Shown in pieces: positions 46,716-54,100 of a stretch of 64,000 bases of DNA. Each line of letters begins with the position of its first letter. Position 1 is the stretch's first letter. The DNA is from Nonomuraea rubra (GTDB lineage: Bacteria; Actinomycetota; Actinomycetes; Streptosporangiales; Streptosporangiaceae), in contig NZ_JACHMI010000001.1 of assembly GCF_014207985.1 (NCBI RefSeq), positions 8,539,001 to 8,603,000 of the forward strand, given 5' to 3'. The notes under the pieces are model-generated. The model was not told the origin of the DNA, searched no databases, and was given only the letters and a program-made list of their open reading frames with translations. A program made the position numbers and the translations under genes.

Positions 46716-47261
46716 GTGGCTATCGACCTGCTCAATCACAAGCTCGATCGGGCGTTCGACCACATCGACGCGAGCGGCAACGGCGTCGTCGAGCGCGAGG
46801 ACCTGCTGGGGCTGGGCGCCCGTATCCTGGTGGGCTTCGGGGAGTCCCCCACCTCGGTCGCCGGGGCGAGTCTCGTGGACGGCTTCGACCGCATCTGGTC
46901 CACCCTGTCGGAGACGCTGGAGCGCGACGGCGACTCCGGCATCGCGCGCCCGGACTTCCTGCGGGGGATGACGGCGGCGTTCGTCACGGGCGACCAGTAC
47001 GACCCGGTGTTCAGGCCGGCCACGGTCGCGGTGGCCGAGCTGTGCGACGGCGACGACGACGGGGAGATCGGGCCGGGCGAGTTCCGCACGATGTTGTGCG
47101 CGTTCGGGGTGGCCTACGACGACGTGGACGAGGCGTTCGACCGCCTGGACCGGTCGGGCAGGGGCACGCTCACCGTGGACGAGCTGGTCGTGGCCGCGGC
47201 CGACTACTACCGCGGCGACGACCCCAACGCCGCCGGCAACTGGCTTTTCGGGCCCCTGTGA
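46716..47261 (+). CDS. EF-hand calcium-binding protein (calerythrin-like)
   Basis: A 181-residue cytoplasmic protein with four EF-hands. The loops are DHIDASGNGVVERED, ERDGDSGIARPDF, DGDDDGEIGPGEF and DRSGRGTLTVDEL. The third has the full Asp/Asp/Asp/Glu ligand set; the second is degenerate, as in calerythrins. GTG 46716 follows GGGAGG by 5 nt (TTG 46713 is an alternative). The stop overlaps the GTG start of a terpene synthase gene (GTGA), so the two proteins are made from one message. A role as calcium sensor or chaperone for the enzyme is conceivable but unproven. Confidence 0.88.
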   Translation: MAIDLLNHKLDRAFDHIDASGNGVVEREDLLGLGARILVGFGESPTSVAGASLVDGFDRIWSTLSETLERDGDSGIARPDFLRGMTAAFVTGDQYDPVFRPATVAVAELCDGDDDGEIGPGEFRTMLCAFGVAYDDVDEAFDRLDRSGRGTLTVDELVVAAADYYRGDDPNAAGNWLFGPL

Positions 47262-48295
47262 ACAGCACGGTGAAGAACACTCCAGTGAAGAGCGCCTCCA
47301 AGGACGGCGTGAGCACCGCCGCCACCACGACCGTGTTCGCCACGGTCCGCACCGCCCTGCGCTCGGCCCTGTCGTCCCTGCTGCCGCTGCCGCGCAGGGG
47401 CGGCTCGGCCGCGATGGCGCTGCTGCCGCTCACCGAGCGGGTGCCCGCGATGGCGGCGCCGTGCAGGATGCACCCGGCCGTGTACGCGATCGAGGCCGCG
47501 GTCATCGACTGGGCCAGGCGTTCCGGCCTGCGTGCCGACCCGGGCGTCGGCTACCACCGGATGGCGGGCCGGGCGTTCGCCGAGTTCGACGCGGCCGCGG
47601 CGGCGCTGTTCGCGCAGTGGCTGACGTGGCTGTTCCACCTGGACGACGAGCTGGACGAGCGGTCGGGCCCGCTGGAGATCTTCCACGGCATGCTCAAGGG
47701 CACGTCCTGCCATCCGCTGGAGGCGGCCTTCGCCGACCTGTGGCGCGTGACGAGCGTGCGGATGAGCGACCAGTGGCGGGCCAGGTTCGCGGTGGGGCTG
47801 CAGCGCCAGTACGACGCCTGCCGGGCCGAGGCGGAGAACCGGGCGGCGGGGCGGATGCCGACGCTGGAGGAGTACCCGGCGCTGCGCAGGGGCACGGTCG
47901 GCCCTTACCTGTACGACCTGGTGGAGCCGTGCCTGCGGGTGGAGGTGCCGGTCTGGGTGCACGAGTCGGACCCGTGGCGGCAGCTCGTGGACGCCTGCAG
48001 CGACGTCACCGCCTGGTGCAACGACGTGGCCTCGCGGCCGAAGGAGCGGGGCGACGTGCACAACTTCGTGGTGCTGGCGATGCGGCAGCTCGGCCTGGGC
48101 GAGCGGGAGGCGACGGCCTGGGTGCTGGACCGGATCGCCGCGCGCTGCCAGGACATGCGCAAGGCGGCCAGGCGGCTGCCGCTGGACGACCTGGCGCCGA
48201 AGGCGGCCAGGGACGTCAGCAAGGTCGCCTGCGCCTACCTGGCCGCGCCGCGCGCGCACCTGGACTGGCTCCTGGAGTCCCAGCGCTACGCGTGA
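47258..48295 (+). CDS. Class I terpene synthase
   Basis: A 345-residue terpene cyclase. The metal motif LFHLDDELDER (Asp129, Asp130) is DDxxD-type. The pyrophosphate-sensor block is EYPALRRGTVG, the NSE motif is WCNDVASRPKERGD (Asn255, Ser259, Glu263), and the C-terminal RY pair is in QRYA at the end. The N-terminal about 60 residues are low-complexity and may be dispensable; an in-frame ATG at 47414 also exists. GTG 47258 is coupled to the upstream EF-hand gene. The product (sesqui- or monoterpene) cannot be told. No tailoring enzymes or prenyl synthase are adjacent. Confidence 0.85.
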   Translation: MNSTVKNTPVKSASKDGVSTAATTTVFATVRTALRSALSSLLPLPRRGGSAAMALLPLTERVPAMAAPCRMHPAVYAIEAAVIDWARRSGLRADPGVGYHRMAGRAFAEFDAAAAALFAQWLTWLFHLDDELDERSGPLEIFHGMLKGTSCHPLEAAFADLWRVTSVRMSDQWRARFAVGLQRQYDACRAEAENRAAGRMPTLEEYPALRRGTVGPYLYDLVEPCLRVEVPVWVHESDPWRQLVDACSDVTAWCNDVASRPKERGDVHNFVVLAMRQLGLGEREATAWVLDRIAARCQDMRKAARRLPLDDLAPKAARDVSKVACAYLAAPRAHLDWLLESQRYA

Positions 48296-48339: not shown

Positions 48340-49314
48340 TCAGGCGTGGGCCTTGGGGCCGGCGGCGAGCATGTCGCCGGCCAGGGTGCGGCGGTAGACG
48401 ACCTGCTTGCCGAGCCGCATGCCGACCGCCAGCCCGCCGCCGCTGAGCACGCCGAGGTGCTGGCTGACCGCGCCGGGCGTGAGCGCCATGCGGGCGGCCA
48501 GCGCCGAGGTGGTGGCGGGCTCGGCGAGCGCGAGCAGGATCGCGGCCCTGCTCCGCCCGATCAGCGCGGCGAGCGCGCCGGGCGCGGGCGGCGGACCCTG
48601 CTCCCACAGCGTGCCGACGCCCTGCACGGGGTAGACCAGCATCGACTGGTACGGCGCCGTCATCACGGCCACGGCCGGCCAGTAGAACGCGCTGGGCACC
48701 AGCACCAGCCCGTCCCCGTGCAACCCGCCCGACGCGCACCAGGGCCGGTCGATGAGCAGCAGCTCCCCCGTCCACACCACGGCCGGGTCGAGCCCGGCGA
48801 ACAGCTCGCGCGCCCCGCCCTGGGCGAGCTGGCGCGAGCGGCGCAGCACGTCCCGCTCCAGCAGCGCGTACACGCGGGGCCAGAACTCGGCGAAGCACCC
48901 CTCCCAGTACGCCTCCAGCGCGTCCGCGACCCTGGACACCCCGGCCTCGGGGTCGGCGGCGAAGCGTGCGATGACGGCCGGGTCCGTGCCGCGCACCTTC
49001 AGCGCCTCCTGGCGGGCCAGCGCGGGGTCGGTGCGCCTGACGCGGTCGAGCTCGGCGGCGAAGTCGGGCATCGGCGTGTCGGGCGGCGGGGTGATGAAGT
49101 CGGCCAGGTAGCCGCCCGGCGGCACGAGCGCGAACAGCTCGGACAGGTCGAGCCCGGCCAGCCGGGGCCGCACGGCCTTGAGCCAGGGCAGGTGGATCGA
49201 CTGCCTGGCGGGCTGCTGGAGGGTGCGCAGGCTGGCCACGAGCTCCCACATCGGGGAGAAGGCGAACCGGATGCGCGCCACGTCCTCGGGCCTCAGCGCC
49301 CAGGTGATGGACAT
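48340..49314 (-). CDS. ArsR-type regulator (DUF5937 + winged helix)
   Basis: A 324-residue regulator. An N-terminal DUF5937 region (about residues 1-235, RFAFSPMWELVASLRTLQQP) is joined to a C-terminal ArsR winged helix (RAAILLALAEPATTSALAARMALTPGAVSQHLGVLSGGGLA). The ATG is 3 bp from a palindrome at 49318-49333. It is divergent to the MFS gene, which it likely controls. The ligand is unknown. Confidence 0.88.
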   Translation of the reverse strand: MSITWALRPEDVARIRFAFSPMWELVASLRTLQQPARQSIHLPWLKAVRPRLAGLDLSELFALVPPGGYLADFITPPPDTPMPDFAAELDRVRRTDPALARQEALKVRGTDPAVIARFAADPEAGVSRVADALEAYWEGCFAEFWPRVYALLERDVLRRSRQLAQGGARELFAGLDPAVVWTGELLLIDRPWCASGGLHGDGLVLVPSAFYWPAVAVMTAPYQSMLVYPVQGVGTLWEQGPPPAPGALAALIGRSRAAILLALAEPATTSALAARMALTPGAVSQHLGVLSGGGLAVGMRLGKQVVYRRTLAGDMLAAGPKAHA

Positions 49315-50695: not shown

Positions 50696-52558
50696 ATGCG
50701 CAGCGTGGCAACCGGCACGGCCATGCGCGGCACGGCGATCGGCATGGCCACGCTCGCCGTCGTGTTCGAGCTCGCCGACATCTGGGTGACGGCACAACTG
50801 CCGCAGCCCTCCTGGACCCCGCTGCCGCTCGCCCCCGAGGACATGGCGGGCACGGCGTTCTCCGTCTTCGGCGCGATCCTGGTGCACAGCAGGCCGCGGC
50901 TGGTGATCGGCTGGCTGCTGTGCGTCGGCGGGCTGAGCGCCGCGGCCAACATCCTGTCGGCGAACACCTTCCACCTGCTGTACGGGCACGCCGCGGTGGG
51001 CTGGCCGCTGATCAACCTCACCTGGCATGTGCTGCAGCTCACGCTGGGCGTGCTGCTCCCCCTGCTCTTCCCGGTCGGCACGCTGCTGTCGAGGCGCTGG
51101 CGCTGGGTGGTCGTGCTGGCCGTCATGGGCGTGGCGCTCGACTGGGCCGGCGCGCTGAGCGGGCAGAAAACGTTTCGGGAGCCCGCGCACTGGATGGTGT
51201 CGGCGGCCATGGCGCTGGCGTTCGTCTCGCTGGTGGTGCGGTTCAAGCGCGGGGACGCGGCCGAGCGGCGCCAGCTCCTGTGGCTGGTGGTGGCGCTGCC
51301 GGGGCTGCTGGTGCCGTGGATGCTGGGCGATCCGTTCTGGTGGCTGGCGACGCTGACCATCCCGCTGATCCCGGCGGCCATCGCGATCGCGGTGCTGCGT
51401 TACCGGCTGTTCGGCATCGACACGCTGATCACCCGGGCGCTCATCGGCACCGGGCTGATCATCGTGACGACCGGCGTGTACGTGGCGGTCAGCGCCGCGA
51501 GCAGCCTGTTCCTCGCCGAGGTGGACCAGGTGGCCGGGATCGCGGCGGCGGTGTTCGCCGGGGCGTCCTTCCAGCCGATGCGCCGCGGCATGCAGCGCGG
51601 CGTGGACCGGCTGCTGTACGGCAGCACCGGCGTGCCCGGCACGCTGGCCAGGCGGCTGCGGCACCGGCTGCAGCACGCCGACCCGGTGCACGGGCTGCTG
51701 GCCACGCTGGACACGCTGCGCGAGGGCCTGTCGGTGACGGGCGTGGCGGTCGAGCTGGACGGCATGACCACCACCTCCGGCTCGCTCGGCCCGCCCGCGC
51801 GGGTGATCTCCCTGGTGTGGCACGGCGAGCCGGTCGGGCTGCTGCTGGTCGGGCCGACCGACAGGCGCAGGTTCCCGGCGGCGCACGACGAGCGGGTGCT
51901 GGCCACGCTCACGCCGTACATCGCCGACGCGGCGCACGCGGTGCGGCTGACGGCCGCGTTGCAGCGCTCGCGCGAGCGCATCCTGACCGCGCGCGAGGAG
52001 GAGCGGCGGCGGCTGCGCCGCGACCTGCACGACGGGCTCGGCCAGTCGCTCACCGGCATGGCCATGTCGATCAACGCCGCCCGCCTGTCCGTACGCAGCT
52101 CGCCCGAGCGCGCGGACCTGCTGCTGGCCGAGTTGCGCGCCGGCATGGACGCGGTGAGCGGCGACATCAGGCAGCTCGTGTACGGCCTGCGCCCGCCGGC
52201 GCTCGACGAGCTGGGCCTGGCGGGGGCCGTGGCGGAGCTGGCCGGCACGCCGGTCGAGGTCTCCGGCGGCCTCGACGGGCTGCCCGCGGCCGTGGAGGTG
52301 GCCGCGTACCGGATCGTGCAGGAGGCGCTCACCAACGCGCGCAAGCACTCCGGCGCCGCCACGATCGCGGTCGCGCTGCGGCGCGCGGAGACGTTGCGGA
52401 TCACCGTCACCGACGACGGGTGCGGGATCCCGCCGGACGCGCGGGCGGGCGTCGGGCTGGGCTCGATGCGCGAGCGGGCCGCCGAGCTGGGAGGCACCTG
52501 CGTCGTACGGGAGGCGGAGGGAGGCGGCACCGTTGTCGACGCCGAACTACCTCTCTGA
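50696..52558 (+). CDS. Sensor histidine kinase (NarL type)
   Basis: A 620-residue kinase. The N-terminal half is membrane-embedded with about six to eight helices (sensing within or near the membrane). A GAF-like region follows (about 330-430), then the HisKA_3 dimerisation and phosphorylation box EEERRRLRRDLHDGLGQSLTGMAMS (His about 445), and HATPase_c with VQEALTNARKHSGA and DDGCGIPPDARAGVGLGSMRERA. ATG 50696 has GGGCGGG upstream; GTG 50678 is an alternative. The next gene, 49 bp downstream, encodes its fused response regulator. Confidence 0.93.
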   Translation: MRSVATGTAMRGTAIGMATLAVVFELADIWVTAQLPQPSWTPLPLAPEDMAGTAFSVFGAILVHSRPRLVIGWLLCVGGLSAAANILSANTFHLLYGHAAVGWPLINLTWHVLQLTLGVLLPLLFPVGTLLSRRWRWVVVLAVMGVALDWAGALSGQKTFREPAHWMVSAAMALAFVSLVVRFKRGDAAERRQLLWLVVALPGLLVPWMLGDPFWWLATLTIPLIPAAIAIAVLRYRLFGIDTLITRALIGTGLIIVTTGVYVAVSAASSLFLAEVDQVAGIAAAVFAGASFQPMRRGMQRGVDRLLYGSTGVPGTLARRLRHRLQHADPVHGLLATLDTLREGLSVTGVAVELDGMTTTSGSLGPPARVISLVWHGEPVGLLLVGPTDRRRFPAAHDERVLATLTPYIADAAHAVRLTAALQRSRERILTAREEERRRLRRDLHDGLGQSLTGMAMSINAARLSVRSSPERADLLLAELRAGMDAVSGDIRQLVYGLRPPALDELGLAGAVAELAGTPVEVSGGLDGLPAAVEVAAYRIVQEALTNARKHSGAATIAVALRRAETLRITVTDDGCGIPPDARAGVGLGSMRERAAELGGTCVVREAEGGGTVVDAELPL

Positions 52559-52607
52559 AATTTCCCCATATACCCAGACTCGTTCTGCCTCTACAGTTAC
52601 GCCTGAC

Positions 52608-54047
52608 ATGCTGACCTTCACCGCTCTCGGACCGTTCCAGGCCTGGGCCGACGGCGCGCCCCTCGACCTCGGCGGACAGCGGCAGCGGGCGGTGCTCGCG
52701 CGCCTGCTCGTCGCCGCTGGCCGCGCCGTGCCCGTGCACACCCTCATCGACGAGCTCTGGCCGGGCGACCCGCCCGCGCAGGCCCTGTCCACGATCCAGG
52801 GCTATGTCTCGCGGCTGCGCCGCGCCCTGGAGCCCGGCCGGGCACCCCGCGAGGAGGCCGGGGTGCTGGTGTCCGCGCCGCCCGGGTACGCGTTGCGCGC
52901 CCGTACCGAGCAGGTGGACGCCTGGCACTTCGAGGGCCTGGTCAAGTCCGACGGCACGCCCGCGCAGGTGTGGGCGGCCATGGACACCGCGCTGGGGCTG
53001 TGGCGGGGGCCGGCGCTGGCCGAGTTCGCGGAGCTGAGCTGGGCCGCGACCGAGGCCGGGCGGCTGGAGGAGCTGCGGCTGATCGCCGTGGAGCGGCGGG
53101 CGGACGCCGGGCTGGCGCTGGGCCGGGCGACGTCGCTGGTGGCGGACCTGGAGGCGCACGCGACGGCGTACCCGCTGCGGGAGGAGGCGTGGCGGCTGCT
53201 GGCCGTGGCGCTCTACCGGATGGGGCGCCAGGGCGACGCGCTGGCGGCGCTGCGCAGGGCGCGCGCCGTGTGGCGGGACGAGCTGGGGCTGGACCTGTCG
53301 GCCGGGCTGAAGCGGCTGGAGGCCGACATGCTGGCCCAGCGCCTGGAGGAGCCCGCCGCCGATCCGGTCCCCGGGCCCGTGCCGGATGGCGGGGTGCTGC
53401 GCGTGCTGGTGGCCGATGACCAGGCGCTGGTGCGTACCGGGCTGAAGGCCATGCTGGACAGCGAGCCCGGGTTCGCGCACGCGGGCGAGGCGGCCAACGG
53501 CGAGGAGGCGATCGCGGCCGTCCGCGAGGCGCGTCCCGACGTGGTGCTGCTCGACATCCAGATGCCGCGCCTGGACGGCCTGGCCGCCGCCCGCCGGATC
53601 CTGGCCGGGGAGCGGCCGCCTAAGGTCGTCATGATGACCACGTTCGGCAGCGACGAGAACCTGTACGCGGCGCTGCGGGCCGGGGTGAGCGGGTTCCTGC
53701 TGAAGACCTCGCCGCCCGAGCAGATCCTGGCCGCGCTCAGGGCCGCCGCGGCCGGTGACGCGCTCATCGACCCGGCGGTGACCACGCGGCTGATCTCGGC
53801 GTTCGCCGGGCGCACCGACCCGGCCTCGCCGCCGGCGCTGGCCGGGCTCGCCGACGACCGGCTGGACGTGCTCAAGCTCGTCGCCCGCGGGCTGACCAAC
53901 CGGCAGATCGGGCAGACGCTCGCGCTGCCGGAGGAGGAGGTGGGCGTGGTGGTGAAGTCGCTGCTGGAGCACCTCGGGCTGTTCGACAGGGCACAGCTCG
54001 TGATGGCCGCGTACGAGTCGGGCCTGGTCACCCCAGGCGCGAAATGA
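52608..54047 (+). CDS. SARP/BTAD - REC - LuxR fusion regulator
   Basis: A 479-residue protein joining two kinds of regulator. Residues about 1-90 are an OmpR-type winged helix of SARP proteins (FTALGPFQAWADGAPLDLGGQRQRAVLARLL). Residues about 95-245 are the BTAD domain (DELGLDLSAGLKRLEADM ends it). After a Pro-rich linker (PVPGPVPDGG), residues about 260-380 are a receiver domain with the acidic pair VADDQ (about 270), the phospho-acceptor Asp in VLLDIQMP (about 315) and Lys in FLLKTSP (about 366). Residues 414-475 resemble a LuxR/NarL helix-turn-helix, but TPRE is gone and the recognition helix reads EEEVGVVVKSLL instead of a normal VKTHV, so the SARP domain probably does the DNA binding. 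ATG 52608 is the first plausible start. Confidence 0.85.
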   Translation: MLTFTALGPFQAWADGAPLDLGGQRQRAVLARLLVAAGRAVPVHTLIDELWPGDPPAQALSTIQGYVSRLRRALEPGRAPREEAGVLVSAPPGYALRARTEQVDAWHFEGLVKSDGTPAQVWAAMDTALGLWRGPALAEFAELSWAATEAGRLEELRLIAVERRADAGLALGRATSLVADLEAHATAYPLREEAWRLLAVALYRMGRQGDALAALRRARAVWRDELGLDLSAGLKRLEADMLAQRLEEPAADPVPGPVPDGGVLRVLVADDQALVRTGLKAMLDSEPGFAHAGEAANGEEAIAAVREARPDVVLLDIQMPRLDGLAAARRILAGERPPKVVMMTTFGSDENLYAALRAGVSGFLLKTSPPEQILAALRAAAAGDALIDPAVTTRLISAFAGRTDPASPPALAGLADDRLDVLKLVARGLTNRQIGQTLALPEEEVGVVVKSLLEHLGLFDRAQLVMAAYESGLVTPGAK

Positions 54048-54100
54048 CCGGCTTTTCGTCGCTTTGACGATAAAAATCGGGGCGTACTAGGCTGTTCAAC

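Follow-up and report, generated by a model that had tools for sequence, protein, structure and literature searches.

SARPs are the classic activators of antibiotic gene clusters in actinomycetes, and it is unclear by what signal many of them are switched. The mycobacterial SARP EmbR carries an FHA domain which reads phosphothreonine, and REC-BTAD regulators hold a receiver and a BTAD domain in one chain, with the receiver first. Here we describe a locus of Nonomuraea rubra, a member of a genus of antibiotic producers, in which the gene of a HisKA_3 histidine kinase is followed by a gene encoding a SARP winged helix, a BTAD domain, a receiver and a LuxR-like helix-turn-helix (HTH) tail in a single protein. 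The stretch of DNA analyzed (the window; 64,000 nucleotides of contig NZ_JACHMI010000001.1) lies at 8.54-8.60 Mb of the 12.9 Mb genome. We consider it probable that the locus encodes a two-component system with a SARP activator as its output, in which a NarL-type regulator has been captured as a phospho-switch that does not read DNA.

Compared with EmbR, which is addressed by phosphothreonine via its FHA domain, the window protein is expected to be phosphorylated on an aspartate by a histidine kinase, and it differs from REC-BTAD regulators in its opposite domain order and its NarL-type HTH. The large SARP AfsR of S. coelicolor is described, in the available text of PMC10936776, as a protein with NOD and TPR domains which is phosphorylated by Ser/Thr kinases and activated by ATP binding, with phosphorylation having little effect on activation; the window protein carries a receiver and HTH module instead. 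The C-terminal domains of AfsR autoinhibit its SARP domain, which in isolation is monomeric in solution and dimerizes on DNA (PMC10936776). In the accessible part of a 2024 review, SARPs are divided into small, medium, large and SARP-LAL types and the word 'receiver' does not occur (PMC10972967). As described there, SARP-LAL regulators resemble the window protein in having a SARP ahead of a LuxR-related part without a working LuxR helix; they differ in that the LuxR HTH motif is absent, the partner is an ATP-binding domain and there is no receiver (PMC10972967). Kinase-linked BTAD proteins have already been counted before, because the accessible part of a 2023 gene-cluster survey gives BTAD proteins as 0.6% of response regulators, the latter being defined by a neighboring kinase; no individual BTAD response regulator is described in that part (PMC10663231).

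Domain Architecture and Distribution of the SARP Regulator

An earlier note, made from the letters of the window alone, had placed the kinase gene 49 bp upstream of a single frame with a SARP winged helix first, followed by a BTAD domain, a complete receiver and a LuxR-like tail. Coordinates, reading frame and gap proved correct, the regulator being one unbroken frame of 479 amino acids from the ATG at 52608 to the stop codon at 54047, and a Pfam search bore out the order of the domains. Trans_reg_C was found at residues 24-94 (31.3 bits), BTAD at 103-241 (117.6 bits), Response_reg at 266-377 (92.3 bits) and a weak GerE match, the LuxR-like helix, at 419-468 (25.3 bits; cut-off 23.5). Between BTAD and the receiver lies a variable linker (residues 246-263), in which none of the 18 positions is invariant in an alignment of 146 distinct sequences (159 minus 13 duplicates) and residues 249-261 have a pLDDT below 50 in the predicted structure. 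The ratio of nonsynonymous to synonymous substitution rates (dN/dS) was 0.86 for this linker. For the domains discussed below, dN/dS was calculated by the NG86 method in two sets (22 Nonomuraea sequences and 17 sequences of other genera).

The N-terminal part has the organization of a SARP, an OmpR-type winged helix followed by BTAD, with DNA-contact residues in and around the recognition helix. Eleven of the 12 positions equivalent to DNA contacts of AfsR were invariant in a 55-row alignment. W51, P56, Q58, S68, R69 and R71 are identical to the AfsR contact residues and R72 replaces a lysine; S68, R69, R71 and R72, which correspond to S91, R92, R94 and K95 of AfsR, are invariant in all 55 rows together with W51, P56 and Q58. 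The base-reading T88 of AfsR is replaced by Gly65. With a dN/dS of 0.01 for the recognition helix in both sets, the predicted SARP reading face is intact.

An annotation error or a frameshift between BTAD and receiver, the latter named by the earlier note as a possible flaw, was ruled out, as 29 of 35 congeners and other genera share the domain order; chance domain matches were ruled out by Pfam, alignment and structure comparison. The order was found in Nonomuraea and in eight further genera (Streptosporangium, Acrocarpospora, Microbispora, Spongiactinospora, Microtetraspora, Herbidospora, Sphaerisporangium and Planomonospora), the nearest named relatives being from Nonomuraea. In four of the 29 congeners the fusion was matched as two pieces; the six without it are G011, G012, G013, G021, G026 and G035. 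Matches at E 1e-80 or better were obtained in 61 of 200 genomes of Streptosporangiaceae, 51 in one piece and 10 in two pieces, covering 19 of 68 genera, and in a sample of the order in 87 of 249 genomes, every one of them in Streptosporangiaceae. No full-length match except the window's own was found in 396 genomes of the phylum at E 1e-65, and full-length matches among 394 genomes of the class at E 1e-52 were listed for Streptosporangiaceae only; with these cut-offs (1e-80 for the order) and four to six candidates scored per genome, distant fusions may be missed. All of the best 120 of 1553 homologues carry BTAD, Trans_reg_C and Response_reg in precomputed Pfam annotation. As judged from these matches, the SARP-BTAD-REC-LuxR-like family is conserved in Streptosporangiaceae. 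In the genome of N. rubra itself, with 150 first-look candidates scored in each search, the regulator gene was the only one with both BTAD and a receiver when the 56 BTAD and 145 receiver matches listed were compared by eye.

The Receiver Retains All Phosphorylation Residues

The residues expected of a two-component response regulator, namely two acidic residues, the phospho-acceptor aspartate, a threonine and a lysine (D270, D271, D316, T344 and K366), were invariant in all 146 sequences, the window's included, so that the receiver is complete as claimed before. They are also intact in seven loci without a neighboring kinase. The dN/dS of the receiver was 0.27 in Nonomuraea and 0.18 in the other genera. 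The repeated absence of a neighboring kinase would suit a receiver that acts as a non-phosphorylated, ligand- or protein-binding switch, like the JadR1-type atypical response regulators. Such atypical regulators are described in the available text of PMC8910723 as being without the phosphorylation residues, whereas the present family has all five, unchanged in each of the 146 sequences, and we regard this explanation as very improbable. That phosphorylation of the receiver controls a SARP-type activator, as the earlier note had suggested, is retained as the best reading from the anatomy of the protein and the invariant receiver residues.

The LuxR-Like Tail Has Lost Its Reading Face and Kept Its Core

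Like NarL-, LiaR- and VraR-type regulators, the protein combines a receiver of the NarL type with a four-helix HTH, with matches over residues 263-473; unlike them, its HTH lacks the canonical residues and a SARP is fused in front. Ten canonical HTH positions (415, 417, 418, 444, 446, 447, 448, 451, 455 and 459) were selected as those conserved in 39 stand-alone NarL-type regulators from other loci (the 42 loci L069-L110 minus the full-length member L074, L093 with a SARP match and the incomplete L092). The controls keep nine (9 sequences) or ten (30 sequences) of the canonical residues, largely by the choice of positions. Of the fused sequences (146), 118 have none of the ten, 22 have a single one and six have two. 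The loss of the TPRE and VKTHV residues noticed in the window is correct and holds for all 146 aligned sequences, none of which has a normal LuxR helix, a finding that would have counted against the earlier note. The mean charge of the recognition helix (441-459) is -2.76 (range -5 to 0) in the fused sequences vs +3.05 (2 to 4) in the controls.

The tail itself is present in every sequence, and 16 of its 56 positions from 415 to 470 are invariant (D420, L424, R427, G428, I434, L438, L453, L456, L458, R461, A462, Q463, V465, A468, Y469 and E470). At the ten canonical positions dN/dS was 1.41 in Nonomuraea and 0.78 in the other genera, compared with 0.14 and 0.24 in the rest of the HTH and 0.05 and 0.08 in the last helix (460-472). 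We read the value of 1.41 as absent constraint and not as positive selection. None of 300 random draws of ten HTH positions matched the proportion of nonsynonymous differences (pN) of the canonical set in Nonomuraea. Helices were predicted at 416-426, 431-438, 442-456 and 461-470. Full-length structure matches to LiaR, VraR, spr1814, ChrA and EvgA had high root mean square deviations of 6-13 Å, and as the rows of the structure alignment are mostly driven by the receiver, the evidence for the fold of the tail comes from Pfam, the predicted structure and these full-length matches.

The earlier note had called the LuxR domain vestigial. The neutral rate of its reading positions agrees with a functionless remnant, as does the hand count of precomputed Pfam annotation in which GerE was called in 82 of the best 120 of 1553 homologues and not in the other 38. 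Against this stand the invariant positions, the presence of the tail in all 146 sequences and the low dN/dS in the last helix and outside the ten positions, and a vestige is unlikely. Because purifying selection acts outside the canonical positions, the tail still appears to do something. A second possibility is that it still binds DNA with a new specificity, making the protein a two-headed binder of a SARP site and a LuxR site. The prediction of a four-helix HTH with a selected core would allow this, but Lys/Arg446, H448, K455 and R459 are kept in none of the 146 sequences and Arg/Lys451 in seven, the charge of the recognition helix is never above zero, and the reading positions vary at the neutral rate within one genus, unlike what a fixed new target would demand. 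We give this idea hardly any credence. Judged by its substitution pattern, the tail is a retained domain that does not read DNA, its core being selected while its reading face drifts. It offers a clean case of an HTH of this kind and raises the matter of HTH roles besides DNA binding.

Origin of the Fusion and a Separate SARP-CheY Family

A receiver tree of 51 rows was calculated which included 17 fused receivers and 17 SARP-CheY rows, picked out of 146 and 122, and 17 NarL-type regulators. The fused receivers formed one clade (support 99/97) within the NarL-type regulators. Their nearest neighbor among the 51 rows (support 100/94) was a NarL-type regulator (L118:4127-4783) encoded in the same genome at a distance of about 60 kb, which is 56% identical over residues 249-478 and retains a full GerE domain (66.2 bits). 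The single clade beside such a regulator suggests that a SARP probably acquired an ordinary NarL-type regulator by fusion in one event.

Two proteins from other actinomycete families, P0123 and P0124, have a SARP, a BTAD domain and a CheY-type receiver in this order and no LuxR domain according to Pfam. They came from 11 inspected loci in other genomes with co-linear matches past residue 262; in the other nine, judged without Pfam, the BLAST matches ended at residues 244-314. Of 120 listed homologues of P0124, 119 carry Trans_reg_C, BTAD and Response_reg and the last has no Trans_reg_C call, the order not being checked singly; names among the relatives include Pseudonocardia, Kineosporiaceae, Sporichthyaceae and Pseudofrankia. 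This SARP-CheY family shares with the window protein the same three domains, SARP first and receiver last. It differs in its receivers, which form a clade of their own (support 100/100), in the absence of a LuxR domain and in having one member beside a hybrid kinase with REC and Hpt domains. The window protein, with its NarL-type receiver and LuxR-like tail, falls outside that family. A common origin of both types was ruled out by their separate clades, with full support, in the receiver and SARP trees. Because both the receivers and the SARP parts are separate, the trees indicate that the SARP-receiver combination arose at least twice, as independent fusions. The earlier note knew of no described system with this order. 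A search of titles and abstract openings in the open-licence literature found no description of a SARP-receiver protein, the SARP-CheY family included; the order of SARP, BTAD and receiver does exist in P0123 and P0124 and is not unique to the window family. The loci inspected for the SARP-CheY type were L120:2891-4306 (minus strand), which adjoins the hybrid kinase, and L121:2609-3958 (plus strand).

Kinase Pairing, Promoter and Proposed Mechanism

The kinase has the domains and motifs of a HisKA_3 sensor kinase, with HisKA_3 at residues 436-503 (57.9 bits), HATPase_c at 534-620 (58.6 bits), an H-box LHDG at 444, an N-box at 547 and G-boxes at 573 and 587. Eight transmembrane-like segments precede residue 267 in the hydropathy plot. 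NarL-type receivers are usually partnered by kinases of the HisKA_3 class. Two types of kinase accompany the regulator, that of the window and one about 49% identical in Acrocarpospora.

The pairing of kinase and regulator as a two-component system, proposed from the window, is supported by 28 of 38 loci, in which a kinase lies at most 400 nt upstream on the same strand (with another one downstream in L051). It does not extend to the seven loci without a kinase (L035, L038, L039, L041, L043, L045 and L050, scattered over the regulator tree). On that tree the absence amounts to seven changes, at least three of them forced by well-supported branches, and we read the absences as losses.

Upstream of the regulator gene, 38 of 39 loci, including six of the seven without a kinase, have a TANNNT hexamer at a distance of 9-10 nt from the ATG (shuffle means 1.68 of 22 and 0.64 of 17, the observed count being inflated by kinship). 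CCNT(A/G)T was present in the region 25-52 nt ahead of the start codon in 18 of the 22 Nonomuraea loci and in five of the 17 others, against shuffle means of 1.39 and 0.91. The -10-like hexamer fits a putative leaderless promoter of the SARP gene, and its presence suggests that this gene may be expressed independently of the kinase transcript. The sole locus without TANNNT is L039 of N. basaltis, in which a 65-residue fragment that matches the start of NAD synthase (L039:4795-4989) lies directly 5' of the SARP gene and kinase and promoter are missing; this might reflect rearrangement or misassembly.

In the mechanism that we propose, D316 would receive its phosphate from the membrane-bound HisKA_3 kinase or from a relative of it encoded at another place in the genome. 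The receiver and LuxR-like tail, which together would be a captured response regulator of the NarL type without its former ability to read DNA, would then relieve autoinhibition of the SARP part or dimerize it, the retained last helix being the most likely means. DNA would be read by the SARP winged helix, and the BTAD domain would assist in recruitment of RNA polymerase as in AfsR. The autoinhibition of AfsR by its C-terminal domains and the monomeric state of its isolated SARP part before DNA binding show by analogy that a SARP can be governed in this manner. In a more specific form, the whole NarL-type regulator would be a DNA-blind phospho-clamp, phosphorylation driving the pairing of the tails and this setting two SARP heads on tandem sites and the HTH being kept across genera purely for dimerization; this form is offered tentatively, our doubts slightly outweighing our confidence. 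A SARP wired to a receiver would have a direct, testable signal input, and perhaps offer a handle on silent Nonomuraea clusters.

Several observations weigh against the proposed mechanism. The pairing is loose, because the kinase is absent from the fetched flanks of seven of 38 loci, all Nonomuraea, lies about 2 kb upstream in one (L062) and only downstream in two (Spongiactinospora). A hand count in the congeners, whose genomes are partly of the same species as the 38 loci, likewise showed the gene to be adjoined by a kinase match (E 1e-60) in only 19 of 30 fusion-bearing genomes. The predicted structure of the regulator has a pTM of 0.54 with unstructured linkers, so that domain packing and any dimer are hypothetical, and pairing of the tails is drawn from the general role of the last helix of NarL-type regulators in dimerization. 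SARPs bind direct repeats in the -35 region of target promoters, and inspection of the conserved promoter of the regulator gene by eye gave no clear SARP direct repeats (11-bp, heptamer) that would point to autoregulation.

The loose pairing also bears on the source of the phosphate. The genome of N. rubra contains an orphan HisKA_3 kinase (G000:C1:504167, equal to L119:3638-5677, minus strand) which shares 54 of 68 HisKA_3 residues (79%) with the window kinase; the 8 kb fetched for it contained no convincing receiver. By hand count, a second kinase of 57-62% identity is present in 26 of 30 fusion-bearing genomes vs one of six congeners without the fusion (one-sided hypergeometric 0.0018, with the threshold set after viewing the list, kinship uncorrected and orthology assumed). 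The orphan paralogue is a plausible second phosphodonor. The receiver might even be fed by it or by small phosphodonors with the neighboring kinase dispensable, as the repeated kinase absences also suggest, but 28 of 38 loci retain the kinase and the kinase-less genomes G005 and G019, the latter incomplete, have no paralogue at the threshold used. This alternative is possible although we lean against it; it is compatible with phospho-control of the SARP and replaces only the source of the phosphate.

Features and Gene Neighborhood of the Locus

The features of the locus are listed in Table 1.

Table 1. Position of the kinase and regulator genes, protein domains and promoter elements in the window.
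Feature	Position	Strand	Basis
Sensor histidine kinase, HisKA_3 class, 620 aa (ATG to stop)	50696..52558	+	Pfam, hydropathy, motif positions
CCATAT element, 5' of -10-like hexamer	52566..52571	+	
-10-like hexamer TACAGT, 10 nt before start codon	52592..52597	+	
SARP-BTAD-REC-LuxR-like response regulator, 479 aa	52608..54047	+	Pfam, alignment
OmpR/SARP winged-helix DNA-binding domain, residues 1-94, recognition helix ~60-74	52608..52889	+	
BTAD, residues 103-245	52914..53342	+	Pfam 117.6 bits
Variable Pro/Ala-rich linker, residues 246-263	53343..53396	+	Conservation, dN/dS, pLDDT
NarL-type receiver, residues 264-380, predicted phospho-acceptor D316	53397..53747	+	Response_reg 92.3 bits
LuxR/NarL-like HTH without canonical DNA-reading residues, residues 414-472, conserved last helix ~460-472	53847..54023	+	

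The system is preceded by genes for a terpene synthase, a DUF5937-HTH_20 regulator and an MFS transporter and followed by that of NAD synthase. The terpene synthase gene (Terpene_syn_C_2; 47207-48295) lies close to the MFS transporter gene and the SARP system, and the DUF5937-HTH_20 regulator gene (48340-49314) is divergent from the MFS transporter gene. By their position only, the MFS transporter and terpene synthase genes are candidate targets of the SARP regulator. In 21 Nonomuraea loci the MFS transporter was found in 20 and the DUF5937-HTH_20 regulator in 17. Directly 5' of the NAD synthase gene, at 54048-54100, an inverted-repeat-like element of the type T(T/A)TCGTC..TTGACGA is present, a possible candidate operator, and a pattern of this type recurs in 27 of 38 loci of relatives.

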